IMG/VR virus record: IMGVR_UViG_3300021962_000021
Span: 174,220-238,219 of that record
DNA: 64,000 nucleotides
Source: a virus
Strand: one strand, 5' to 3'
Part shown: positions 6,110-24,935 of the stretch, one piece after another
Layout: each line of letters begins with the position of its first letter
Numbering within the stretch: position 1 is the stretch's first letter
Notes under the pieces: generated by a model
The model's database searches: none
The model's input: the letters and a program-made list of their open reading frames with translations, nothing else
What the model was told of the DNA's origin: nothing
Translations under genes and position numbers: made by a program

Positions 6110-7102
6110 ATGAATAAAACGGACAAGATTTTAGTTACAGGAGCAAGTGGTTTTATCGGCTCACACCTATTGAGATTATTATGGGAAAAAGGATATAGAA
6201 ACCTAAGAGCAACATCTTATAGTAGAGATTTAAAAAACGATTTCGAAGGAACATCGGAAGTTGAATTTTACAAAGGAAATTTACAAGATGCGGATTTTTG
6301 TAAAGAAGTTTCTAAAGATGTAAATGTAGTATTCCACTGCGCAGCAAACACATCAAACGCATTGGATACGAAAGAAAATCCACTATTACATGTTACTCCA
6401 AATGTGGAAATGAATGTAAATTTAATGGAACAAAGTTGGAGAAATAGTGTAAGTAAATTCTTATTCATTTCATCTAATACTTCTTATCCTGATATGGGTA
6501 GTGATTGGTGCACAGAAGATATAAATGTTCATGCAACACCTACATTTCCAATTTATGGAGCAGTTGGTAATATGAAAAGATATGGTGAATTACTTTGTCA
6601 TTTCTTCTCAAATCAAATTCATAACCCAATGCAATGTTTGATTGTTAGACCTTCAAATGCATTCGGACCAAACGACAAATTTGATTATGAAAAATGTCAT
6701 GTTACTCCTGCAAACATCAGAAAAGTAGCAGATGGCTTAAATCCAATTCCAGTGTGGGGTGATGGAACGGAAGTTAGAGATTTGTTGCATGTAGAAGATA
6801 TGGCAGATGGTTTTATCTTTGTTGCAGAAAATAATGACAAGTATGATATATTTAATGTTTGTTATGGAGAAGGATTTAGTGTAAACGAAGTATTAAGTTG
6901 GATTAAAGAAGCAGATAACAACAATAATCCAGTTGAATATGTGAATAACAAAGCACCTATGATTCCGGTTAGATTAATGTCATCTAAGAAAATAAACGCT
7001 GCAGGTTGGAAACCTAAGAGAGATTTAAAAACTGCTTTAAAAGAAACTATCGAATGGTATAAAGCAAATAAACATTTGTATAATCCAAATTCAAAACCAT
7101 AA
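6110..7102 (+). CDS. NAD-dependent epimerase/dehydratase (extended SDR)
   Basis: A 330-aa extended SDR. It has VTGASGFIGSHLL (GxxGxxG), GNLQDADFC, FHCAANTSN, ISSNTSYPD, RPSNAFGPND and a GDGTEVRDLLHVEDMADG segment typical of nucleotide-sugar epimerases. In the catalytic helix the Lys (GNMKRYGE) has no Tyr four residues before it; the nearest Tyr is in PIYGAV seven before. It is separated by 4 nt from the SGNH gene and shares a base with the next start (TAATG). Likely a nucleotide-sugar epimerase/reductase. Confidence 0.85.
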   Translation: MNKTDKILVTGASGFIGSHLLRLLWEKGYRNLRATSYSRDLKNDFEGTSEVEFYKGNLQDADFCKEVSKDVNVVFHCAANTSNALDTKENPLLHVTPNVEMNVNLMEQSWRNSVSKFLFISSNTSYPDMGSDWCTEDINVHATPTFPIYGAVGNMKRYGELLCHFFSNQIHNPMQCLIVRPSNAFGPNDKFDYEKCHVTPANIRKVADGLNPIPVWGDGTEVRDLLHVEDMADGFIFVAENNDKYDIFNVCYGEGFSVNEVLSWIKEADNNNNPVEYVNNKAPMIPVRLMSSKKINAAGWKPKRDLKTALKETIEWYKANKHLYNPNSKP

Positions 7103-7644
7103 TGAGTAAGCCAGAATTTTCACCATATAAGGATGAATTGACAAAAGCAATGAATTTTCTTTCTGAAAAAGAGGATACGGTTTTCATTGGACAGCAAATA
7201 GTTTATGCCGGAAATCCAATGTCAACTACATTGAATGATGTTCCAAAGGAAAAAATGATTGAAGTTCCTGTTATGGAAGAAACACAAATGGGAATGAGTT
7301 TAGGACTTGCAATAACAGGTAAAACGGTAATATCATTTTATCCAAGATGGGATTTTTTAGTTTCCGCAGCAAATCAGTTAATTAATCATGCTGATAAATT
7401 TGAACATATGACCGGTAAAAAGGTCAATGTTATTGTTAGAGTCGGTGTTGGTAGTAAAGACCCATTGGATCCAGGTATTCAGCATAGAAACGATTATACC
7501 GATGAATTCCAATCAATTCTTCAATTTACAAAAGTTCATAAATTAAAAAAAATAGAAGATATTTATAAAATATATACTGAAGCATATGAGCAAGGTGGTA
7601 TTCATATAATAGTGGAATGGCCTGAATTATATTATAAAAACTAA
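7102..7644 (+). CDS. Thiamine-diphosphate enzyme pyrimidine-binding domain (E1-beta/transketolase-like), standalone
   Basis: A 180-aa protein matching only the Pyr domain of E1-beta/transketolase enzymes: IGQQIVYAGNPM, then MEETQMGMSLGLAITGKT with the cofactor-activating Glu, then FYPRWDFLVSAANQLINHADKF and VIVRVGVGSKDP. The family normally also needs a PP (diphosphate) domain and a C-terminal domain. Neither is fused here, so a partner subunit must be elsewhere in the phage or host, or the protein is a relic. It ends the 5' sugar operon. A role in supplying a two-carbon unit for an unusual sugar is possible but inferred. Confidence 0.65.
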   Translation: MSKPEFSPYKDELTKAMNFLSEKEDTVFIGQQIVYAGNPMSTTLNDVPKEKMIEVPVMEETQMGMSLGLAITGKTVISFYPRWDFLVSAANQLINHADKFEHMTGKKVNVIVRVGVGSKDPLDPGIQHRNDYTDEFQSILQFTKVHKLKKIEDIYKIYTEAYEQGGIHIIVEWPELYYKN

Positions 7645-7647
7645 ATT

Positions 7648-7776
7648 ATGTTTAAAAAATTACCTATCATCTCATTTTTCATTAAAAAATATGAAAATTA
7701 TAAGATGAAAAAGAAAATTCAGAAAAAATTAGAGGAACTCAAAAAGAGAGACCCATTCGTTTATAAGAATTTCTAA
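7648..7776 (+). CDS. Conserved phage micro-ORF, 42 aa
   Basis: ATG at 7648 opens a 42-codon frame ending in TAA at 7776, in the gap between two long genes. The product is basic and helical, ending KKRDPFVYKNF. I recall a nearly identical ending (KKRDPFIY) in small proteins of other T4-like marine phages, which is why I call it real. There is no signal or membrane segment of convincing length. The function is unknown. Confidence 0.55.
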   Translation: MFKKLPIISFFIKKYENYKMKKKIQKKLEELKKRDPFVYKNF

Positions 7777-7786
7777 TATTTTAGGA

Positions 7787-7794
7787 TATTTATA
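7787..7794 (+). promoter_or_regulatory. Late-promoter candidate TATTTATA
   Basis: A perfect copy of the repeated TATTTATA element, ending 3 nt before the ATG of the 1294-aa gene. This is unusually close; a transcript starting here would be leaderless or would start inside the gene. Confidence 0.35.
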
Positions 7795-7797
7795 TGT

Positions 7798-10700
7798 ATG
7801 AATTTAATAAACGAAGTAGATAAACCGGAAATTAAGAAAACTGTTGTAATATTTTCAGGCAGATTTCAACCCTTTCATAGAGGACATTATGCAACATATG
7901 AGCACTTAGTGTCAAAATTTGGTGCTGCAAATGTTTACATAGGAACATCAAATGACCAATCTGGTCCAAAATCTCCGTTTGGATTTAAAGAAAAAAAGGA
8001 AATTGCAACAAAGATGTTTGGTATTCCTTCAAATAGATTTATACAAATTCGTAATCCATATCAACCGATTGAAATACTTAAAAAATTCGATGGACAAACT
8101 ACGCAATATATTGCAGCAGTAGGAGAGAAAGATGCAACAAGATTGCAAGGTAAATACTTTAAACCATATAAAGGCAAAGCTGGATATGGTTATGATGAAA
8201 TTGGTTATGTTTATCCGGTACCAGCAGAACAAAATCCAATAAGCGGAACGGATGTTAGAAATGCATTAGGTAGTGGGAATGATGAAAAAGCTAAAAAGTT
8301 TTTTCTAAAAGCATATCCAAAATTTGATAAAGAAATATATAAAATGATAACAGGAAAGTTAAATGAGAATTTTATAAAAGGTTATCCATCAAAAGAAGAT
8401 GTTAAAAAAATCCAAAAGAAAAATGATGATATTCGTTCAGTAGCAACTACGGATGATTCATATGTATATGACCCAATTGCAGAATTAATTGGTAGAGTGG
8501 CAGCAGAAGAGATGTTTAATGAATTTATTTTAGAATATTTGGATGAAGCACCTAATAAAGCATTAGACCAAGACATCACTTATACAAATAGTAAAGGCCA
8601 GCAAAAGAAAATTAAAGCCAGGGATGCATTAAGATTACCAAAAGACCATCCAGCTCACGTACAAGCAGCTAAAATAGCAGGACCGGATGATGCACCTGTG
8701 AATGAACCAAAAGCAAAAAAAGAACCAGGAAAAGCAGCTCAAAAAGCAGCAGAACCATCTCAGCCTGGTCAACCAACCAAAAAAGACCAAACCCAACAAG
8801 GAAAAATAGATAAAGAAAAATCATCTACCAGTGCACAATCTGGAAAAGAACAAGGTCCACCACCTGAACAAAAATTAAGTGGAACTGAATTAAAATCTTC
8901 AGCAGAAACTACACCTAAAGACCAAAAAGCCGAAAAAGTAAAACAAGCATTGGATGGTGCAAGAAAAGAGTTATCAAAAGAAGATAACCAAACTATTGAT
9001 AAAGTAAACAACCCACAATCTCCGGAAAGAAAAGGAATGATGGGTAACATTAAAAATGGTTTAAAAAAGATTGGTGATGGATTAGGACATTGGGCAAAGC
9101 ATAAGGCAGAAATGGTCGGTGGAACGGTTGATGCAGTAAAAGCATTAGCAAATGGACAGAAAATTGGTTCTACTAAAAATAAAGAAACAGGCGAATGGGA
9201 ATACTCCGATGAAAAAAGAAAAGAACAGATAAAACATATAAAACACTTTGCATTGGATGCTGGATTGTTAATAGGTTCTATGGCATTGGGTGGAGCTGGA
9301 GTTGCAGGAGTAAAAGCAGTGATGGCAGGTAAAGGAGCGGCCGCAGCGGGTTCTGCAGCATTACACGGCGCCGCTGGTGCATTTACACATGGTGCCGTTG
9401 GATTTGGTGCACATTTGGGTAAAGATATTGCAAAACACGCCGCATTGGAAACATTAGGATTGGGAGGAGTTAGCGCAGCAGGTGGTGGAGCAGCGTTATC
9501 CATAGCAACGGGTGGGATATTGGAAATGATTAATGAAGAAATTGATGATAACAACAAATTTATATCAAACTTTATGAGAAAGGTTGTCGAAAAAATGGAA
9601 ACATATCAACTTTCCGATGAACAACTACTCAAATCTATTGAAAATTATAAGAAAAATAAACCAAAACAAGATGCAGCCGATTTGTTAAGAGAAAACCTTT
9701 CAGAAACAAAACAACAATCAATTCAACATTTTGTAGAGTTTGCAACTAAAAGATTAAAATTACAAGAAACACCAAAAGTTAATTTAGTAGGTGGTGGAGA
9801 ATTTGCAGAAATAAAAACCAGTTTAGGGGGATTTGACCCTGAAACAAAAGAAATATATGTTGCAACCGAAGGAAGATTAACGGCGGATATTTTAAGAACT
9901 CTTGCACATGAAATGGTTCACAGAAAGCAAGATGAAATGGGATTGGTTAGAAATCCTATGAAAGATGGTGCAGATGGTTCTCCAATAGAAAACCAGGCGC
10001 ATGCAGTTGCGGGTATTCTAATGAGGGAATATGGTAGAATTAACAAACAAATATATCAAGAAGGAAAAAACTCACCGGCATATAAAGGACCGGAAGGATA
10101 CGATGATAGTTGCGATTGTTATCCAAATGAAGATATTAACTTAGATGTTGATAAGGGTGATACTTTATTGATGGGAAAGTTTAAAAACAAAAAAGTTACA
10201 GTAAAAGATATTGGTGTAGATGACCACGGAATGCCAACAATCAATGGTAAGCAAGCAACTACATTTCGTAAAGTAGATGAAATGGGCAGTAAGGATATTC
10301 ATTTTAAAAATATTTTAGATAAACTAAAAAACGGAAACTATACAACAAGAAAGAAGATAGCAATGGCAATTGTCGGTAAGTATAATGCAAGTAGAGATAC
10401 CATTGTAAGAGCTTTGCGTAATATGGGATATGATGATATTACAAATGTTGAAAAGCAAGCCGGAATAGAATTAAATGAAAATTTATTATTAGAAGGTGGT
10501 GCATATGGACACATGTCGCATCCATTTGATGATATGGATTTAACATTTGGTGACCTTAAAAATATAATTACAGGAGCACTGAATGGTGATTTGGGTGTAG
10601 TAAGAGAGAAAACCGATGGACAAGCATTAGCTATCAGTTGGAAGAATGGTAGATTGATTGCAGCAAGAAACAAAGGACATTTAGCAAATGCTGGAGCAAA

Positions 10701-11682
10701 TGCTATGGGTATTGAAGATGTTGCATCAAAGTTTGCCGGAAGAGGTGGATTAACCGATGCATACAATTTCGCAATGAGAGATTTATCAGCTGCAATTAGT
10801 TCTCTATCAGAAGCACAAAGGAAAAAAATATTCAACGAAGGACAATGTTTTATGAATTTGGAAGTAATATGGCCAACTTCGGTAAATGTTATTCCTTATG
10901 GACAGGCTTTATTAGTATTCCACAATACAACATGTTATGATGAGAAAGGTGTTGCAATTGGAGCAGACCAAGGAGCATCATCTACATTAGCAGGAATGAT
11001 TAAGCAAGTAAATGCAGATGTTCAATCAAAATATACAATACAAGGCCCGCCTATTACTTCAATTCCAAAAGATGAAAACCTTTCTTCTAAACAAGGAAAG
11101 TATTTATCAAAATTAAGTAAACTACAATCTGAATTTAAATTATCCGATAGTGATACGGTTGCACTTTATCATCAGAGTTGGTGGGAAAATTTTATAGATA
11201 AAAAATCTCCAGTTAAAGTTGATAAATTAACAAAAGAAGCTTTAGTAAGAAGATGGGCATTTGGTGATAAATCGTTTAGATTAAATACAATATCAAATCC
11301 TAAGTTACAAGAGTGGGCAATAGAGAACGATAAAGTAAATGTAGAAAAACAACAAAAAGAAAATATAAAACCATTTGAAGAAATATTTTTAAGTGTTGGA
11401 GCAGATGTATTAGATTTTGTAAGTTCAGTATTGACAGTTCATCCGGAAAAAGCAATAAGAGCAATAAAGAATAAATTTAAATCAGTTGCATCTGAAGTTA
11501 GAGGGAGTGGAGATAAAACAAAAATACAAAAACTTAAATCGGAATTAAAAAGATTAAATGATTTAGGTGGAATTGATAGAATAGTTGCATCTGAAGGTTT
11601 GGTATTTTTCTATAACGGAAAAACATATAAATTGACAGGAACATTCGCACCGTTAAATCAAATATTAGGATTATTTTATTAA
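7798..11682 (+). CDS. Giant multidomain protein: nucleotidyltransferase + metallopeptidase + ligase-like
   Basis: A 1294-aa protein. Residues 14-190 form a cytidylyltransferase-like fold: FSGRFQPFHRGH (HRGH 27-30) and ISGTDVR (148-154), as in NMNAT/phosphopantetheine adenylyltransferases. Residues 260-420 are a Pro/Lys/Ala-rich linker. Residues 480-570 are hydrophobic Gly/Ala-rich. Residues 660-760 hold a zinc-peptidase HEMVH (704-708). From residue 900 a ligase-type nucleotidyltransferase follows with KTDG (938-941, motif I), ARNKG and MNLEVIWP. LxE sites fit gp21 prohead-protease cleavage: LDE250, LQE657 and LLE899, the last two at domain starts. Probably packaged in the head and cleaved there. 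It lies upstream of gp17. Confidence 0.7.
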   Translation: MNLINEVDKPEIKKTVVIFSGRFQPFHRGHYATYEHLVSKFGAANVYIGTSNDQSGPKSPFGFKEKKEIATKMFGIPSNRFIQIRNPYQPIEILKKFDGQTTQYIAAVGEKDATRLQGKYFKPYKGKAGYGYDEIGYVYPVPAEQNPISGTDVRNALGSGNDEKAKKFFLKAYPKFDKEIYKMITGKLNENFIKGYPSKEDVKKIQKKNDDIRSVATTDDSYVYDPIAELIGRVAAEEMFNEFILEYLDEAPNKALDQDITYTNSKGQQKKIKARDALRLPKDHPAHVQAAKIAGPDDAPVNEPKAKKEPGKAAQKAAEPSQPGQPTKKDQTQQGKIDKEKSSTSAQSGKEQGPPPEQKLSGTELKSSAETTPKDQKAEKVKQALDGARKELSKEDNQTIDKVNNPQSPERKGMMGNIKNGLKKIGDGLGHWAKHKAEMVGGTVDAVKALANGQKIGSTKNKETGEWEYSDEKRKEQIKHIKHFALDAGLLIGSMALGGAGVAGVKAVMAGKGAAAAGSAALHGAAGAFTHGAVGFGAHLGKDIAKHAALETLGLGGVSAAGGGAALSIATGGILEMINEEIDDNNKFISNFMRKVVEKMETYQLSDEQLLKSIENYKKNKPKQDAADLLRENLSETKQQSIQHFVEFATKRLKLQETPKVNLVGGGEFAEIKTSLGGFDPETKEIYVATEGRLTADILRTLAHEMVHRKQDEMGLVRNPMKDGADGSPIENQAHAVAGILMREYGRINKQIYQEGKNSPAYKGPEGYDDSCDCYPNEDINLDVDKGDTLLMGKFKNKKVTVKDIGVDDHGMPTINGKQATTFRKVDEMGSKDIHFKNILDKLKNGNYTTRKKIAMAIVGKYNASRDTIVRALRNMGYDDITNVEKQAGIELNENLLLEGGAYGHMSHPFDDMDLTFGDLKNIITGALNGDLGVVREKTDGQALAISWKNGRLIAARNKGHLANAGANAMGIEDVASKFAGRGGLTDAYNFAMRDLSAAISSLSEAQRKKIFNEGQCFMNLEVIWPTSVNVIPYGQALLVFHNTTCYDEKGVAIGADQGASSTLAGMIKQVNADVQSKYTIQGPPITSIPKDENLSSKQGKYLSKLSKLQSEFKLSDSDTVALYHQSWWENFIDKKSPVKVDKLTKEALVRRWAFGDKSFRLNTISNPKLQEWAIENDKVNVEKQQKENIKPFEEIFLSVGADVLDFVSSVLTVHPEKAIRAIKNKFKSVASEVRGSGDKTKIQKLKSELKRLNDLGGIDRIVASEGLVFFYNGKTYKLTGTFAPLNQILGLFY

Positions 11683-11694
11683 AATTAAAAAGTT

Positions 11695-12366
11695 ATGCAA
11701 AAAAGAACCAGTTTTGACCAAAAAAACAAATACATTCACAAATCTCGTAAAAAGATTATTGATACCGTATTTGGTAGAGAAGATAATACACAAAGAGTCT
11801 TTGGTTATGAAAAAGTAGAAGATACTACAAAAAGAGAAGTTGGAGAAAAGTGGACTGATGCCGATGGTAAAGAGTGGGAGCAAAGAGAAGGATACAAAGT
11901 TGCCGTATCTCAAATGGATGATGTTAGAGATTATTTAAAAAAATTAACTACATGTAAAAATTCAGAATGTAAAACAACAACTTATACCAAAGCCGATAAA
12001 AAACTTATAGTAAGAGCCGGTTATTGTATTAATTGTAATATTGAATTTGAAGCAAAATTGAAAAAAGAAGGTGTTTATCCATTTTATGAAGATTACAAAA
12101 TAACTTCTAATAAAATTGGATGGTTAAGAGATTATAAACAAAAAATGGAAGATAGTTTAAAATATATTACAAAAGATTATCAAATGGTTTATGAAAATGG
12201 ACATGTTGAAAATTGGAATTGGGATATAGATATAGATAAGGTAAAAGCAGATTTAAAAAATGATATAGATAGTTCTTATGAAGCATTGGAATTATTAATA
12301 CATAGAAAAAGGTTATTGGAAGATAAGTTACGAGAATTAAATTATGAAGAACTAATAAAAAATTAA
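11695..12366 (+). CDS. Hypothetical protein with zinc-ribbon-like Cys motif
   Basis: A 223-aa protein, basic and charged. Cys87, Cys92, Cys111 and Cys114 (CKNSEC ... CINC) form a plausible four-Cys zinc ribbon around residues 85-116. The C-terminal 60 residues look like a long helix or coiled coil. It sits 12 nt after the giant protein and just upstream of a membrane protein and the terminase. A small-terminase (gp16) role is conceivable from position only; no gp16 motif was recognised. Confidence 0.5.
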   Translation: MQKRTSFDQKNKYIHKSRKKIIDTVFGREDNTQRVFGYEKVEDTTKREVGEKWTDADGKEWEQREGYKVAVSQMDDVRDYLKKLTTCKNSECKTTTYTKADKKLIVRAGYCINCNIEFEAKLKKEGVYPFYEDYKITSNKIGWLRDYKQKMEDSLKYITKDYQMVYENGHVENWNWDIDIDKVKADLKNDIDSSYEALELLIHRKRLLEDKLRELNYEELIKN

Positions 12367-12368
12367 TT

Positions 12369-13025
12369 ATGAAAAAATTATTGAATTTTAAAAACATTGC
12401 TATCGCAGCATTGATTATTTACATTTTATTACAATGGTTTAACCCAGGTGGAGTTATGCCAGGTGGAAGAACTATCAGAATTGATGGTAAAAAATATGAA
12501 GTATTAAAGCACACAATCGACACGGTTGAAGTAGAAAAATTAAAAGTAGTTACTAAAAAAGGAAAAGATATTGTACATGAAGTAATTGATGTGGATACTT
12601 TAGTTTTAAAAGAATTGGTAAATGTAGATTCTGCAGCAATTCTTAAAGATTATTTATCAAAAGTAATTTATAAAGATACATTATTCCTTCCTGATTCATT
12701 AGGAACTGTTTCATTAGTTGATACTATTACTAAAAACAGAATATTAGGTAGAACATTTGACGCAAAAGTAAAACAAAGAGAAATAAAAGAAACTCTTATT
12801 GTTAAAGAACCGGCTAAACACCAACTTTATTATGGTTTAAATGGTGGATTCAACAAAGCAGATGTGGTATCTCATGTAGGAGCAGGTTTAATGTTAAAAA
12901 CCAAAAAAGATAAATTATATCAATTTGGTGTAGGTGTTACAAATAGAACAGTTGATGGAACAAATGGTTCATTATCACCGTTTATAAATTTTGGAACATA
13001 TTGGAAAATTAAATTGAAAAAATAA
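12369..13025 (+). CDS. Membrane-anchored hypothetical protein with beta-rich C-terminus
   Basis: A 218-aa protein. Residues 9-24 (NIAIAALIIYILLQWF) form one N-terminal membrane segment after a basic KK start. The middle is charged, with alternating Val/Lys/Glu. The last 60 residues (YYGLNGGFNK... FINFGTYWKIKL) are Gly/aromatic-rich like beta strands of an envelope protein. The topology recalls an envelope-spanning lysis or entry protein, but no spanin lipobox is present. The stop shares a base with the terminase start (TAATG). Confidence 0.5.
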   Translation: MKKLLNFKNIAIAALIIYILLQWFNPGGVMPGGRTIRIDGKKYEVLKHTIDTVEVEKLKVVTKKGKDIVHEVIDVDTLVLKELVNVDSAAILKDYLSKVIYKDTLFLPDSLGTVSLVDTITKNRILGRTFDAKVKQREIKETLIVKEPAKHQLYYGLNGGFNKADVVSHVGAGLMLKTKKDKLYQFGVGVTNRTVDGTNGSLSPFINFGTYWKIKLKK

Positions 13026-14635
13026 TGAGTGTTCAAGGGCAACCAAAGAAAACACTTAAAGAGATAATTGCTGATGAATATCGTAGATGTGCGGGAGACC
13101 CCATCTACTTTATGAAAAAATATTGTATGATTCAGCACCCGGTGAGAGGTAAAATACCCTTTCACCTTTATCCTTTCCAGGAATCTTGTTTGACAGATTT
13201 TAAAGATAATCGTTTTAACATAATTCTTAAAAGTAGACAATTGGGTTTATCTACACTTTCTGCCGGTTATATTCTTTGGAAAATGATATTCAATCAGGAT
13301 TTTAACGCCTTAGTAATTGCAACCAAAGTGACCGTTGCAAAAAACTTAGTAGAGAAAGTAAGAGTTATGCATGACCTCCTTCCTGTTTGGTTGAGAGATG
13401 GTGGAACAGCGGCAGCTGAAGATAATAAACTTTCTCTTAAATTAAAAAATGGTTCACAAGTAAAAGCAATCGCATCTTCTCCAGATGCCGGACGTTCGGA
13501 AGCCTTATCACTACTTGTTGTGGATGAGGCAGCTTTCATTAGAGATATTGATGAAATTTGGTTATCAGCACAATCAACCTTATCAACGGGTGGTTCTGCT
13601 ATTGTATTATCTACACCAAATGGTGTTGGTAACTGGTTTCATAAAATGTGGGTTGAAGGTGAAAATGGAACGAATGGATTTAATACGATAAAACTTCATT
13701 GGACAGTTCACCCAGAAAGAAATCAGGCTTGGAGAGATGAACAAACTCGTATCTTAGGAGTTAAGGGTGCAGCACAAGAATGTGATTGTGACTTTATTGG
13801 TTCTGGTGATAATGTAATTGACCCACAATTATTGATGTGGTATAAAGACACTTATGTTATGGACCCTGTTGAAAAAAGAGGATTCGATGGAAACTTGTGG
13901 GTATGGGAACATCCAAACTACAATAGGCAATATATGGTAGTAGCCGACGTTGCCAGAGGTGATGGTTCGGATTATTCTACCGCACAAGTCATAGATATTG
14001 AAGATTCATCACAGGTTGCAGAGTATAGAGGTAAAATTGATACAAAAGATTTTGGAAACTTCTTAACAGCATTAGCAACGGAATATAACAATGCATTATT
14101 AGTAATAGAAAACTCAAATGTGGGATGGGCATGTATTCAGCAAGTAATTGACAGAGCATATCCTAATTTATTCTATATGAGTAATGATTTGAAATATGTG
14201 GATGTTGAAAAACAAATGTCTAATAAATATTATAGAGATGAAAGACAAATGGTTGCAGGATTTTCAACTACAACCAAAACAAGACCTCTTATCATATCAG
14301 CATTGGATACCTATATGAATGATAAAGATATTCTCATTCGTTCCCAAAGATTGATAGATGAATTATTTACTTTTATTTGGAATAATGGTAGAGCCGAAGC
14401 AATGAAGGGATATAATGATGACCTTACAATGGCATTGGCAATCGGATTATGGGTTAGAAATACTGCATTAAGATTAAGACAAGAAGGTATAGATTTAACA
14501 AAAGCAATGTTGGGTTCTTCACAAATAAATAAATATGAAAGTGTGTATACCGCGCATTCGCATTTAAAGAAAAATCCATACGAAATGGATATGGGTAGAG
14601 GAGAAAAGGAGAATCTTCATTGGTTATTAGGATAA
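13025..14635 (+). CDS. 17: Terminase large subunit gp17 (packaging ATPase-nuclease)
   Basis: A 536-aa protein that translocates phage DNA into the prohead and cuts the concatemer. The ATPase has a Walker A-like SRQLGLST (70-77), where the usual Lys is Leu as I recall for other marine T4-like terminases. The Walker B is LLVVDEAAF (D167-E168), followed by a coupling-motif-like VLSTPNG. The RNase H-like nuclease has VVADVARGDGSDYS (D308) and a later VIENSNVG block. Length is close to T4 gp17 (610 aa). The start is set by the TAATG junction. Confident family call. Confidence 0.95.
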   Translation: MSVQGQPKKTLKEIIADEYRRCAGDPIYFMKKYCMIQHPVRGKIPFHLYPFQESCLTDFKDNRFNIILKSRQLGLSTLSAGYILWKMIFNQDFNALVIATKVTVAKNLVEKVRVMHDLLPVWLRDGGTAAAEDNKLSLKLKNGSQVKAIASSPDAGRSEALSLLVVDEAAFIRDIDEIWLSAQSTLSTGGSAIVLSTPNGVGNWFHKMWVEGENGTNGFNTIKLHWTVHPERNQAWRDEQTRILGVKGAAQECDCDFIGSGDNVIDPQLLMWYKDTYVMDPVEKRGFDGNLWVWEHPNYNRQYMVVADVARGDGSDYSTAQVIDIEDSSQVAEYRGKIDTKDFGNFLTALATEYNNALLVIENSNVGWACIQQVIDRAYPNLFYMSNDLKYVDVEKQMSNKYYRDERQMVAGFSTTTKTRPLIISALDTYMNDKDILIRSQRLIDELFTFIWNNGRAEAMKGYNDDLTMALAIGLWVRNTALRLRQEGIDLTKAMLGSSQINKYESVYTAHSHLKKNPYEMDMGRGEKENLHWLLG

Positions 14636-15791: not shown

Positions 15792-17528
15792 ATGGCAGAT
15801 AAATCAATATTTGGTAGGTTACAAAAATTATTTTCAACAAATACCATAATTCGTAAAACACCTGATGGGGTGAAAGTTGTTGATACAGATGAGTATCAAT
15901 CAATGACCACTAACCTCGTTGACCGTTTTATGAAATTAAAGGTAAGTAATTATGCAGGTGGAGTAGAATCGGGATTAGCATATCAACAAGTTCGTATTGA
16001 CCTTTTTAGGGATTACGATTCAATGGATATGGACCCAATTATTTCATCAGCATTGAATGTATATGCGGATGAGTGCACTGCCAGAAATGAATTTGGAAAT
16101 GTTCTTAAAATTCATCACGAAGATGATAACATAAAGCAAATATTAGAAAATCTTTTTTATGATATTCTAAATATAGAACATACCTTATGGATGTGGACAA
16201 GAAATTTAGTTAAATATGGTGATTTCTATTTACAATTAGAAATGGCCGAAGGATTGGGTATTGTAAATGCACTTCCAATGTCTACTTACGAAATGAGTAG
16301 AATTGAAGGTTTCGATCCTGAAAATCCTCAAAGAGTTAAATTTGTATACGCCCCATACCAAAATCCATATAATGCGGTAGGACAAACTGCAAAGAAAGAA
16401 TACGAAAACTATGAAATAGCACACTTTAGATTAAATGGTGATGCAAACTTTTTACCTTACGGAAAATCTATGATTGAAGGTGGTAGAAGAGTTTGGAAAC
16501 AATTATCTTTAATGGAAGATGCTATGTTAATTCATAGAGTAATGAGAGCTCCTGAAAAAAGAATTTTTAAAGTTGATGTTGGTAATATTCCACCAAACGA
16601 AGTGGATAACTATATGCAAAAAATTATCAACGCATCTAAAAAAGTTCCATTTTTGGATGAAAGAACAGGAGAATATAACTTAAAATATAATATCCAAAAC
16701 TTAATCGAAGATTATTATATGCCAGTTCGTGGTAGTGATAATGGAACATCAATAGATACTTTGAAAGGGTTGGAATATAATATGACAGACGATATTAATT
16801 ATCTAAAAGGAAAATTATTAGCCGCATTACAAATTCCAAAGGCTTTCTTAGGATACGAAGAAGATACAAATGGTAAAGCAACTTTGGCCGGCATGGATGT
16901 TCGTTTTGCAAAAACAATTGAAAGAATACAAAGAGTTATTGTTTCGGAATTGACAAAGATTGCAATTGTTCACTTATATGCACAGGGTATAGATGATGAG
17001 AGATTGACAAACTTCAGTTTAGAATTAACCATTCCATCTAAAATATATGAACAAGAAAAAGTTGAGTTATACACTTCAAAAGTAGCATTAATTACTCAAA
17101 TGCAACAAACAAAAATGGTTTCTAAAAAGTGGATGTATGAAACTATTTTAGGAATGGCAAAAGATGAACAAGATGAACAAACTTTAGCTGTATTAGAAGA
17201 TACTAAACAGGCATTTCGTTTAACTTCAATTGAATCACAAGGTGTTGACCCTGCTAAAGAAACTGGTACTGATGGACCAACAAATGTAGAAGAAGAATTA
17301 AATAAATTAAAATCAGAATTAGAGGAAGATGGTGTTGGTAGACCAAAAGACCCTGTTAGATATGGACATGATGACCATCCAGAGGGAAGAGACCCGTTGG
17401 GAATAAAAACTTTAAAAACAAAAGAAGGCTCTGTAAAATACAAACCAAGAAATTCATATTTAGAGATATTTAAAGATATGAATGGTAATAAAAAGACTAT
17501 TTTGACAGAGAATTTGGATAAAAAGTAA
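15792..17528 (+). CDS. 20: Portal vertex protein gp20
   Basis: A 578-aa protein forming the dodecameric DNA channel at the unique head vertex. The diagnostic C-terminal half has YNMTDDINYLKGKLLAALQ, then IPKAFLGYEEDTNGKATLA and RFAKTIERIQRVIVSEL, the conserved gp20 block. The N-terminal part has PIISSALNVYADECTARNE, typical of this portal family. Length is close to T4 gp20 (524 aa). It starts the head module behind its own promoter. The 3' end is Lys/Asp-rich. Confidence 0.95.
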   Translation: MADKSIFGRLQKLFSTNTIIRKTPDGVKVVDTDEYQSMTTNLVDRFMKLKVSNYAGGVESGLAYQQVRIDLFRDYDSMDMDPIISSALNVYADECTARNEFGNVLKIHHEDDNIKQILENLFYDILNIEHTLWMWTRNLVKYGDFYLQLEMAEGLGIVNALPMSTYEMSRIEGFDPENPQRVKFVYAPYQNPYNAVGQTAKKEYENYEIAHFRLNGDANFLPYGKSMIEGGRRVWKQLSLMEDAMLIHRVMRAPEKRIFKVDVGNIPPNEVDNYMQKIINASKKVPFLDERTGEYNLKYNIQNLIEDYYMPVRGSDNGTSIDTLKGLEYNMTDDINYLKGKLLAALQIPKAFLGYEEDTNGKATLAGMDVRFAKTIERIQRVIVSELTKIAIVHLYAQGIDDERLTNFSLELTIPSKIYEQEKVELYTSKVALITQMQQTKMVSKKWMYETILGMAKDEQDEQTLAVLEDTKQAFRLTSIESQGVDPAKETGTDGPTNVEEELNKLKSELEEDGVGRPKDPVRYGHDDHPEGRDPLGIKTLKTKEGSVKYKPRNSYLEIFKDMNGNKKTILTENLDKK

Positions 17529-20034: not shown

Positions 20035-20625
20035 ATGAATAAGGGATTATTAATAGAAACACACTTATTTGAAGCAAAAATTGTTCAAGAAGAAAATGGA
20101 ACTTATTTAGTTCAAGGTATTCTTCAAAGAGCTGGTGCACCAAATCAAAACCACAGAAGATATCCAAAAGAAATCTTAATGAGAGAGTGTCAAAAATATG
20201 AACAACTCATTAAAGAAAGAAGAGCATTGGGTGAGTTAGACCATCCGGATTCTCCTGTAATCAACCTTAAAAATGTATCACATAACATCAGAGAAATTTG
20301 GTGGGATGGTGATGATGTGATGGGTAAAGTGGAAATTCTTTCAACTCCTTCTGGTAATATTTTAAGAGAATTATTAAAAAACAATATTCGTTTGGGTATA
20401 TCTTCAAGAGGTTTAGGTTCTGTTAAAGAATTGAAAGATGGAACTGTAATGGTTCAGGAAGACTTTGAATTAGTTGGTTGGGATTTTGTTTCTAACCCAT
20501 CTACACATGGAGCATTTATGGCACCAATCAATGAATCCAAACAATGGAAACAAATGGCAGAAGAATGTGGTAAGTGGTGTAAAGCACAAGATTTAATGAG
20601 AGAAATTATAATTGAATTAAATTAA
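20035..20625 (+). CDS. 21: Prohead maturation protease gp21
   Basis: A 196-aa serine protease (U9/herpes-assemblin-like) that cleaves scaffold, capsid and internal proteins after LxE-type sites during head maturation. Visible blocks are RRYPKEIL, GELDHP (His70), GISSRGLGS (Ser123/Ser124) and ELVGWDFVSNPSTHGAFM. Length is close to T4 gp21 (212 aa). Its likely targets are encoded on both sides: gp22 and gp23 downstream, and several helical or modular proteins upstream. Confident call. Confidence 0.92.
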   Translation: MNKGLLIETHLFEAKIVQEENGTYLVQGILQRAGAPNQNHRRYPKEILMRECQKYEQLIKERRALGELDHPDSPVINLKNVSHNIREIWWDGDDVMGKVEILSTPSGNILRELLKNNIRLGISSRGLGSVKELKDGTVMVQEDFELVGWDFVSNPSTHGAFMAPINESKQWKQMAEECGKWCKAQDLMREIIIELN

Positions 20626-22058: not shown

Positions 22059-23288
22059 ATGGCAAATTCAAAATTATTGAAAGAAGCAATTGCTGATGCT
22101 AAGGCTGTTAAAGAAACTGCTCTTGCAAACGCAAAACTCGCTCTTGAAGAAGCATTTACTCCAAGACTTCAATCTATCTTATCTCAAAAGTTAAGAGCAG
22201 AAGCTGAAGCAGAAGAGAAAGATGCAGAAAAAGTAGACGAGGAATTGGATTCTACAGGCATTGGTTCTTCTACCTCTAATCCTAAATTAGACGCGCATAC
22301 TGAATTCGAAGCGGGTTCTACTAAAACAACATCAGGTGAGCCAGGTGCTCAAGTTGATGATTACAAAAAAGTAGCAGATATCAACGAAGAAGAAGGTATG
22401 GAAATGGGTGATGATGAAGCTGAAAAGCAAAATGAAATCGCTCAATTAAAAGCTAGATTAGCAGAATTAGAAGCAGGTGATGACCAAATGGCTGATGAAG
22501 AACCAAAAATGGAAGCTGATGATGAAATGGGTTCAGATGATGAATTCAATTTTGATTCAGAAGAAGGTGATGGTGAAGAATACGATGTTACCGGTAACGA
22601 AGAAGAAGATACCGAAGATGACATGGATTTAGAAGCTATCATCAGAGAATTAGAAGCACAATTAGGTGAAGAAGAAGATTCAGAAGAAGAAATGCCTGCA
22701 GATGATTCAGCAATGGCTGAAAATTTAGCAGACGGTTCAGAAGCTGGAACTGACAAAGGTGAAGACCCTAAAGTGGTTGTAACTAACGAAGAAGAAGAAA
22801 AAGAAGATGAAAAAGATGAAAAGAATGAAGTAATCGACTTAGAAGAAATTCTTCGTGAAATGGAAGCTGATATGAAAGGTGATGAAGATGAGAAAAAAGA
22901 CGAATCTTTAAAATCTGAATTAAACGAAGCTTACAAGACTATCAAATCTTTACAAAAAACTATTAACGAAGTAAACTTATTAAACGCTAAGTTATTATTC
23001 GCTAATAAATTATTCAGAGCACACAACATGACTAACGAACAAAAAGTTAAAGTGATTGAAACTTTGGATAGAACAAAATCAGTTAGAGAAGTTAAATTGG
23101 TTTACTCTACATTAGTAGAAAACTTCAAATATTCTTCAACTAACAAAGTTGCTAAAAAAGCAATCTCAGAAGGAATCGCTTCTAAAGCAGTTAAATCAAC
23201 TGCACCAAAAGCAGCAGCTAAGCAAGTAATTGCAGAATCTGCAGATTTCGCTGATAGATTTAAAAAATTAGCAGGAATTATTAAGTAA
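22059..23288 (+). CDS. 22: Prohead core scaffolding protein gp22
   Basis: A 409-aa scaffold. It opens NSKLLKEAIADAKAVKETAL with a helical, Lys/Ala-rich start, then a very acidic middle (about residues 60-290, rich in EE, DE and GD). A C-terminal conserved block follows: LNEAYKTIKSLQKTINEVN, LLFANKLFRAHNMTNEQK and DRTKSVREVKLVYSTL, as in T4-like gp22. It ends DFADRFKKLAGIIK. It assembles inside the prohead and is degraded by gp21. It is longer than T4 gp22 (269 aa) because of the acidic insert. Codon use is noticeably richer in C-ending codons here and in gp23, consistent with high expression. Confidence 0.9.
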   Translation: MANSKLLKEAIADAKAVKETALANAKLALEEAFTPRLQSILSQKLRAEAEAEEKDAEKVDEELDSTGIGSSTSNPKLDAHTEFEAGSTKTTSGEPGAQVDDYKKVADINEEEGMEMGDDEAEKQNEIAQLKARLAELEAGDDQMADEEPKMEADDEMGSDDEFNFDSEEGDGEEYDVTGNEEEDTEDDMDLEAIIRELEAQLGEEEDSEEEMPADDSAMAENLADGSEAGTDKGEDPKVVVTNEEEEKEDEKDEKNEVIDLEEILREMEADMKGDEDEKKDESLKSELNEAYKTIKSLQKTINEVNLLNAKLLFANKLFRAHNMTNEQKVKVIETLDRTKSVREVKLVYSTLVENFKYSSTNKVAKKAISEGIASKAVKSTAPKAAAKQVIAESADFADRFKKLAGIIK

Positions 23289-23318: not shown

Positions 23319-24935
23319 ATGGATTTAAAACAAATTATGTCAGGCAAAAACCCACAAAACGTAATGCTTGAGCAAACTAGAGGTTTGAAAGCAAAGTGGG
23401 AAAAAACCGGCTTATTAGAAGGAGTAGGTTCTGAAACTTCTAAGCACGGTATGGCTGTAATGCTTGAAAACCAAGCAAAGCAATTACTTGATGAAGCTAC
23501 TAGAACTGGTACTTCAGCAGGTTCAGAAGAGTGGGCAGGTGTAGCTCTTCCATTGGTAAGAAGAATCTTCGGTAGCATCGCTGCAAAAGAATTCGTTTCT
23601 GTTCAACCAATGAACTTACCTTCAGGTCTTATTTTCTATATGGATTTCAAATACGGTACAGCTACATCGGTAGGTAGACCAGCTTCTGGTTCTTCTATGT
23701 TCGGTAACGGTGGTACATTCGGTAAAGATTCTTTATCTCCAGCAGGTAACAAATTGGGTTCTACTCAAACTACTGAAGGCGGTCTTTACGGAGCAGGTAG
23801 ATTTGGATATACAATCAACGATGTAACTTCTGACGCTTTAACAGCAACAGTAACTACAGCTTCTTGGGCTGATGTTAATTTCGATGCTGATTACTCAGCT
23901 TCAGCAGCTGCAGGTGTTATCAGAAAAGTAAAAATTGGTTTACCATCTGATGCTGATTTCAACGCAGTAAGAGCTTTCTCTTTAACTGGTTCAGTTGACC
24001 AATTACCACAATTTACTTCAATTGATTCTTTAGGTTCTGCATCTTTCTTCGTATCAGCTTCTGTAGCAACAGTAGTACATGGTGCAGGTGGATACGGTAA
24101 TCCAAAAGTAAACTATTCTAAGCAACCAACTGATATCACAAGAGGTGATTTCGAAGATAGAGGTTCTGATTTAGCGATTCCTGAAATCGAATTAGAATTG
24201 AAGTCTGAACCAATCGTTGCTAAGACTAGAAAGTTAAAAGCAATCTGGACTCCAGAATTGGCACAAGACTTAAACGCTTACCATTCAGTAGATGCTGAAG
24301 CTGAATTAACTCAAATGTTATCTGAGTATATTTCTTTGGAAATCGACTTAGAAATCTTAGAGATGTTACAGCAAAACGCATTCACAACTGATTATTGGTC
24401 AGCAAGAGTTGGATACGATTACAATGCAGCAGCAGGTGCATTCCAAATCGACTCTAACGCAGCAGCAGCTTCTGCTTACACAAAGAGCACTTGGTATCAA
24501 ACTTTAGGTATTAAATTACAAAAAGTTTCTAACAAGATTCACCAATTAACTATGAGAGGTGGTGCAAACTTCTTAGTTGTATCTCCAAACGTAGCTACAA
24601 TTTTAGAATCTATGAACGGATTCTCTGCAAACCCAGGTAAAGATGCTTTACAATTTGCAGCAGGTGTTACTAATATCGGTTCAATCTCTAACAGATATGA
24701 TGTTTACAAAAACCCATACATGACTGAGAATGTAATCTTATTAGGTTTCAAAGGTTCTAACTTCTTCGAAACAGGTGCTGTATACGCTCCATATGTTCCG
24801 TTGATTATGACTCCATTGGTTTATGACCCAACTAACTTCACTCCAAGAAGAGGTGTTATGACTAGATACGCTAAGAAAATCGTAAGACCAGAGTTCTACG
24901 GTAAGATTGTCGTTGATGGTTTAAACACTTTATAA
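23319..24935 (+). CDS. 23: Major capsid protein gp23
   Basis: A 538-aa T4-type (HK97-fold) capsid subunit. It has LEQTRGLKAKWEKTGLLEG at the N-terminus. LLDEATRTG contains LDE59 followed by Ala, the expected gp21 cleavage point (T4 cuts gp23 after residue 65). Further blocks are EWAGVALPLVRRIFG, ELKSEPIVAKTRKLKAIWT, ELAQDLNAYHSVDAEAEL and a C-terminal RYAKKIVRPEFYGKIVVDGL. Length matches T4 gp23 (521 aa). There is no Shine-Dalgarno; the leader is A/T-rich. A strong terminator follows. Confidence 0.97.
   Translation: MDLKQIMSGKNPQNVMLEQTRGLKAKWEKTGLLEGVGSETSKHGMAVMLENQAKQLLDEATRTGTSAGSEEWAGVALPLVRRIFGSIAAKEFVSVQPMNLPSGLIFYMDFKYGTATSVGRPASGSSMFGNGGTFGKDSLSPAGNKLGSTQTTEGGLYGAGRFGYTINDVTSDALTATVTTASWADVNFDADYSASAAAGVIRKVKIGLPSDADFNAVRAFSLTGSVDQLPQFTSIDSLGSASFFVSASVATVVHGAGGYGNPKVNYSKQPTDITRGDFEDRGSDLAIPEIELELKSEPIVAKTRKLKAIWTPELAQDLNAYHSVDAEAELTQMLSEYISLEIDLEILEMLQQNAFTTDYWSARVGYDYNAAAGAFQIDSNAAAASAYTKSTWYQTLGIKLQKVSNKIHQLTMRGGANFLVVSPNVATILESMNGFSANPGKDALQFAAGVTNIGSISNRYDVYKNPYMTENVILLGFKGSNFFETGAVYAPYVPLIMTPLVYDPTNFTPRRGVMTRYAKKIVRPEFYGKIVVDGLNTL

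Follow-up and report, generated by a model that had tools for sequence, protein, structure and literature searches.

The window analyzed here is a stretch of 64,000 nucleotides that forms the final 64 kb of the 238,219-base virus record IMGVR_UViG_3300021962_000021 (positions 174,220 to 238,219). At 7798..11682, it contains an uninterrupted open reading frame (ORF) of 1294 amino acids (aa), for which an initial annotation had proposed a packaged polyprotein with sites for the prohead protease at its domain borders. When the record of this T4-like jumbo phage was searched with the protein, hereafter the polyprotein, only one match was obtained, and it was intact. Feature coordinates refer to the window and residue numbers to the polyprotein; all the genes and cassettes given as nucleotide ranges with two dots lie on the plus strand, and a slash marks a predicted cut.

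The chain begins with a putative capsid-targeting leader or propeptide, MNLINE/ (residues 1-6, 7798..7815), which was modeled with low confidence and whose E6 was invariant in 32 homologues. The cassette that follows (residues 7-190, 7816..8367, ending KLNE190/) had been annotated as a nucleotidyltransferase from the motifs HRGH (27-30) and ISGTDVR (148-154), and this assignment was borne out. Residues 10-184 matched PHROG 395 (E=3e-12), a PDB profile search with the region returned exclusively NMNATs, with a Francisella NadM-type enzyme at the top, and NMNAT/NaMNAT structures ranked first in a fold search with the predicted model. HxGH and ISGTxxR were invariant in the homologues, and the GRFQPxHxGH and ISGTxxR motifs occurred together with the matching fold, as in NMNAT/NaMNAT enzymes. 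Residues 7-190 are thus predicted, from motifs and model, to form an NMNAT-like adenylyltransferase of the type that serves the synthesis of nicotinamide adenine dinucleotide (NAD). Behind it lie a small helical cassette (191-250, 8368..8547), which ends in YLDE250/A at a joint of low model confidence (249-252), and another small cassette (251-303, 8548..8706, NKALDQDITYTNSKGQQKKIKARDALRLPKDHPAH, ending PVNE303/). The stretch 304-632 (8707..9693) is made up of a disordered Lys/Pro/Gln-rich part, a helical segment and a Gly/Ala-rich hydrophobic segment (about 482-575), with candidate sites at 576/580 and at LRE632/.

The zinc-peptidase motif HEMVH noted initially was located at 704-708, in a metallopeptidase cassette of about residues 633-755 (9694..10062, ending IYQE755/). 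H704, E705, H708 and the distal Glu731 were invariant in 32 homologues, the combination of HExxH and distal Glu being that of Gluzincin-type enzymes, and the match to the Pfam metallopeptidase families DUF6647/DUF6782 was weak and below the cut-off. One homologue (L075) carries a second metallopeptidase cassette directly before its ligase junction, just upstream of position 11190. In the polyprotein, the peptidase is followed by a small beta-rich cassette (779-828, 10132..10281, containing DINLDVDKGDTLLMGKFKNKK and GMPTINGK, ending KVDE828/) and a helical cassette (829-894/899, 10282..10494, ending LNE894/NLLLE899/). A kinase cassette was absent from the 1294-aa polyprotein itself.

The C-terminal part (900-1294, 10495..11679) is an RNA-ligase-like covalent nucleotidyltransferase. 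The KTDG on which the initial annotation had based a ligase-type enzyme proved to be part of motif I in a full lysine-adenylate ligase set: EKTDG at 937-941 (Lys938), NLE (Glu1022), EGLVF (Glu1266) and YKLTG (Lys1278). These four catalytic residues were invariant in 62 sequences, and motifs I (KxDG), III, IV and V were conserved as in the covalent nucleotidyltransferase superfamily. The model of the domain had a mean predicted local distance difference test (pLDDT) of 86.7. RNA ligases came first both in Foldseek (T4 Rnl1 with prob 0.91, yet E=0.009) and in VIA-align (Z up to 8.0). Motifs and model support a covalent-nucleotidyltransferase fold; since the VIA-align scores were middling, RNA rather than DNA specificity is a weak lean and not a result. 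Motifs I, III, IV and V are shared with the phage RNA ligases T4 Rnl1 and Rnl2, which the core resembles in its predicted fold. Unlike these, the domain gave no Pfam match and has a helical stretch of ~160 residues before motif IV, and its identity to phage RNA ligases in structural alignments was about 12%. Profile matches to ribosomal protein eS6 were taken as chance. In homologue L062 (ORF 7992-12530), the ligase domain stops about 137 residues past GGAYGHM, apparently without motifs IV and V, either because the cassette is truncated or because of a frameshift introduced in sequencing.

Related proteins were collected in two sets. The first consisted of 451 related stretches in viral contigs, from which 79 loci were retained; the second was gathered with the ligase domain and comprised at least 582 of its relatives, from which 80 loci were fetched, and was labelled 'marine' for short, a habitat judged solely from sequence likeness to marine phages. 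Complete close homologues spanned 889-2026 aa; their NMNAT-like and ligase-like ends were common to all and their interior differed, whole cassettes having been gained, lost and reordered. In the second set, the order of cassettes varied as well, and the types present included a kinase-like one (AAA_33/Zeta_toxin by Pfam), Nudix and others. When the identity of the P-loop cassette as a polynucleotide kinase was examined, its PDB matches covered only the P-loop. A cassette in L119/L126 gave a weak Pol-beta match (PF01909, E=0.056). In LR756500, the ligase domain is a separate gene with the NMNAT-like domain in the next gene. The homologue of a cultured phage, Microcystis phage Mel-JY01, has 639 aa and consists of the NMNAT-like and ligase-like domains only, joined at NNNIIAE/GGLGGHM, with terminase, protease and capsid genes again downstream.

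The beta-rich cassette of ~50 aa (779-828 in the polyprotein) was found at relative positions 0.01-0.69 across homologues, following the leader directly or coming after the peptidase or other, unrelated cassettes, and nearly always with a Glu immediately before it. Its distribution suggests that recombination has nearly always moved it so that a Glu ends its neighbour. A domain of ~112 aa (HFFDR..D.RN...TIMRK.NF.T) was observed as a cassette in L026 (876-984), L058 and L064, and elsewhere, in unrelated cultured phages, as a separate gene or C-terminal domain (Flavobacterium phage immuto gp80, the C-terminus of Sinorhizobium phage phiM12 gp159 and Methylophilales phage Melnitz gp31); its similarity to the RNase RegB was weak (Pfam E 0.002-0.008, below the cut-off). 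Additionally, KNV73_gp088 of Flavobacterium phage immuto_2-6A (L201, 8132-10855), annotated as NadR, has an NMNAT-like motif with two HExxH motifs behind it and is a related multi-enzyme protein of different order in a cultured phage.

The borders of exchanged cassettes were then compared with the predicted cut rule. When complete homologues were aligned in pairs, 143 insertions of 30 aa or more were counted, which were clustered to 37 events. A [LIVFMY]xE triplet ended within 3 residues of the left border in 26 of these events, of the right border in 21 and of both in 15, and in 11 its register was identical on the two sides. With borders placed at random within these proteins, the means were 6.3, 5.9, 1.0 and 0.22, respectively, and the observed counts were not attained in any of 5,000 simulations. 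To allow for a possible general excess of such triplets at joints, each border was also shifted by 7-30 residues as a local null. The triplet was present at 47 of 72 distinct borders against an expected 6.8 +/- 2.3; the maximum in 10,000 simulations was 17, and none reached 47. At unclustered borders, Glu stood out in P1 (3.8-fold), a behaviour not shared by Pro (2.8), Ile (2.1), Lys (1.6) or Asp (0.6), and Glu in P1 with a polar P3 showed no enrichment (1.05). The border signal requires Glu in P1 together with a hydrophobic residue in P3.

The same rule was found in the major capsid protein (gp23) of this phage. The LDE/A sequence of the cut predicted by the initial annotation is present, with the cut after E59 (QLLDE59/ATRT), and was kept as [LI]xE/A in 16/16 capsid proteins (the phage's own and 15 from related records), so the same cut rule fits the capsid protein and the polyprotein. 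The whole polyprotein contains about 26 [LIVFM]xE triplets; three LxE matches alone are therefore near chance, and it is their placement at cassette borders that is not.

The three triplets originally proposed as domain borders, LDE250, LQE657 and LLE899, all exist in the sequence, and two of them stood as borders. Site 250 lies in a low-confidence joint, and almost every homologue with this region retains it as Y[LFI]xE. Site 899, also in a low-confidence joint (residues 895-905 of the ligase model), was Glu in 43/43 close relatives, with P2 variable, but is not universal in the second set. LQE657 (9766..9768) was rejected: it falls within the folded, conserved start of the peptidase domain, where the block 651-660 has a pLDDT of 83, and the second peptidase copy of L075 lacks such a site. 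The actual border is at about 622-634, with LRE632. Residues 6, 190, 303, 576/580, 755, 828 and 894 are additional likely cut sites, and many of the sites fall in low-confidence joints of the structure models.

The leader provided a further line of evidence. MNLINE/ ends in hydrophobic-x-Glu, as do the leaders of T4-type internal head proteins. In second-set homologues the leaders were longer, about 14-17 aa, and mostly ended in LxE; they include MNKLTKWLTKPFLEE, MTQLTEWLTKPLLEG, MSLKKLVEEITKPILQEG and similar ones, behind which the first cassettes differ. The stand-alone ligase homologue in LR756500 begins MKFLKSYEEFLNE/NLILE/GG, and its MKFLKSYEEFLNE/ leader is like that of T4 IPII and IPIII, which begin MKTYQEFIAE/A. 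Two more proteins with the same leader type were found within the examined 50 kb of this phage. In T4, such leaders direct internal proteins into the prohead core and are trimmed by gp21 (PMC3012670, PMC5694885).

Furthermore, the polyprotein gene belongs to a head and packaging cluster. It sits two genes 5' of the terminase large subunit (13025..14635), a neighbour kept near it in relatives: terminase was present at 77/79 first-set and 78/80 second-set loci, 155/159 in sum. Downstream of terminase follow the portal gene (starting at 15792), the prohead (head maturation) protease (20035..20625; PHROG 207, E=5.7e-56), a very acidic protein that is scaffold-like by its own sequence and position (22059-23288) and adjoins the capsid gene, and gp23 (23319..24935; PHROG 138). 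A gp21-type protease is thus present together with a matching gp23 cut rule, as for a T4-type internal head protein, and it is the likely cutting enzyme of the polyprotein. PADLOC gave no match, nor did an Rfam scan of 7000-13100, and a scan for sigma-70-like promoters around the polyprotein gene gave matches not above chance.

Another motif, TATTTATA, was found in 20 copies on the coding strand, 14 of them between listed ORFs (3,174 bases, 5% of the window) and most of these intergenic copies 17-47 nt 5' of gene starts. Copies lie at 7787, 14641, 17547, 21892, 25937, 29620, 29994, 32711, 36655, 43444, 45746, 47416, 51464 and 58087. The T4 late-promoter form, TATAAATA, occurred in 3 copies, every one within ORFs. 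TATTTATA may be a late promoter element of this phage, in reverse-complement form of that of T4. The copy at 7787-7794 ends just 3 nt before the ATG of the polyprotein; as this is too near for a normal leader, the start codon or the start of the mRNA may differ.

The border signal, the head-gene cluster, the T4-type leader of the stand-alone homologue and the rule shared with the capsid protein give strong indirect support to the idea of a packaged polyprotein with prohead-protease cuts at its domain borders, which the initial annotation had proposed with one misplaced site. Because the cassettes meet at sites resembling head-protease cuts, the head probably carries several separate enzymes from one gene. 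On sequence, models and analogy together, the gene product is quite probably a polyprotein that resides inside the virion and is processed by the prohead protease. As with Alt and the internal proteins of T4, the short leader would bring it into the prohead core. During head maturation, the gp21-type protease would take off the leader and cut after [hydrophobic]-x-Glu in the flexible joints, freeing the NMNAT-like adenylyltransferase, the metallopeptidase, small accessory domains, a Gly/Ala-rich hydrophobic piece and the RNA-ligase-like enzyme. The freed pieces would remain in the head and probably reach the host along with the DNA; this delivery, like packaging, cutting and the substrates, is what we infer from the arrangement of the gene. 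Once injected, they may counter early host responses such as NAD loss and RNA cleavage, and evolution would exchange entire cassettes along with the cutting site. That the pieces repair RNA and supply NAD at entry is a guess from the kinds of enzymes and from published surveys, which list RNA ligases, kinases and Pol-beta nucleotidyltransferases as partners in the RNA repair of phages and assign NadM/NadR to NAD salvage (PMC7824862, PMC9503650).

Several observations weigh against this reading. The 6-residue leader is shorter than the 10-20 residues of T4 leaders (PMC5694885), L156 shows no leader and the start of L094 deviates from the motif. Some borders lack a hydrophobic P3 (INKE, KVE and the polyprotein's own PNE778). 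Universal conservation of LLE899 was rejected, as the residue was Glu in 28, Met in 17 and Cys in 1 of 46 distinct second-set junctions, and release there may not be general. The null models count related sequences as separate, which clustering corrects in part only, and domain joints are natural breakpoints, a point that the local null addresses.

An alternative is that a polyvalent injected protein is kept whole, or is cut in the host only by its own metallopeptidase, the LxE triplets being recombination joints. The retained active-site residues of the peptidase would suit it, as would the published model for multidomain injected phage proteins, which predicts processing by the zincin peptidases embedded in them (PMC5512222). 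Nevertheless, most second-set homologues have no recognized peptidase cassette, yet their leaders and junctions are similar, and the preference for hydrophobic-x-Glu at borders equals the prohead-protease rule of gp23; this alternative is considered unlikely. A cytoplasmic, unpackaged fusion for RNA repair and NAD supply, near terminase merely through late co-expression, would agree with the RNA-repair and NadM-type salvage roles in the surveys cited above and with the kinase, Nudix and possible Pol-beta cassettes of second-set homologues, but the T4-like capsid-targeting leader on the stand-alone homologue, the protease-type junctions and the nearly invariant head-gene neighbourhood make it very improbable. 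The least probable proposal is a core or scaffold-like head protein whose fragments exit the head and whose enzyme domains are structural remnants: T4 gp22, gp67 and gp68 are indeed cut to short fragments by the prohead protease (PMC5694885) and the polyprotein has disordered, lysine-rich stretches, but its NMNAT-like, peptidase and ligase-like domains have active-site residues that vary little or not at all, catalytic motifs persist while cassettes vary widely, and a separate acidic scaffold-like protein adjoins the capsid gene.

If the packaged and cut polyprotein is accepted, a wider proposal can be made, with somewhat less than even confidence in it as a whole. In large T4-like aquatic phages, one gene might serve as a loading cartridge, whose cassettes plug in with their cutting site, are freed by the prohead protease and are injected, and the kit (NMNAT-like, kinase, RNA-ligase-like, peptidase, Nudix and others) might repair RNA and restore NAD before phage gene expression. 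The division of a polyprotein into separate enzymes is characteristic of RNA viruses; in the open-licence papers searched, it was not described for prohead-protease cargo in tailed phages, and no phage polyprotein of this kind was found. Were the proposal correct, a single capsid-targeting signal would bring in many enzymes at a fixed ratio, the exchange of injected cargo among phages would be explained, and the homologues would form a natural pool of cargo cassettes bearing cutting sites. The proposal also predicts RNA- and NAD-acting enzymes at DNA entry, when tRNA cleavage and NAD depletion defences act.

Among known systems, phiKZ-like phages such as SPN3US resemble the polyprotein in that several inner-head or ejection proteins are cut by the prohead protease at a short motif with Glu as its last residue. 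The parts removed there are long N-terminal propeptides, and the available sections of PMC5694885 do not describe several enzymes being released from a single chain. The likeness to the polyvalent proteins that Iyer et al. (2017, PMC5512222) described from phages and conjugative elements lies in the length of the chain and the joining of several unrelated enzyme domains, here in a virion-gene setting; in polyvalent proteins, zincin peptidases are frequent and entry with the DNA is predicted. Processing is credited there mainly to the embedded peptidase, whereas the joints of the polyprotein follow the prohead-protease rule, and this ligase/NMNAT architecture is not described in the available sections of that paper. 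With T4 IPI, IPII, IPIII and Alt, the polyprotein shares the short leader ending in hydrophobic-x-Glu, the gp21-type protease in the gene cluster and the variable host-directed cargo behind a conserved leader. T4 gp21 trims the N-terminal propeptides of gp23, gp24, Alt and the internal proteins and also cleaves core proteins at numerous positions (PMC5694885). T4 has a separate gene for each cargo and removes the leader alone, whereas the polyprotein combines several enzymes in one gene, with a predicted cut at every joint. By analogy, it would work like a multiplied T4 internal protein, with a single leader for several cargo.

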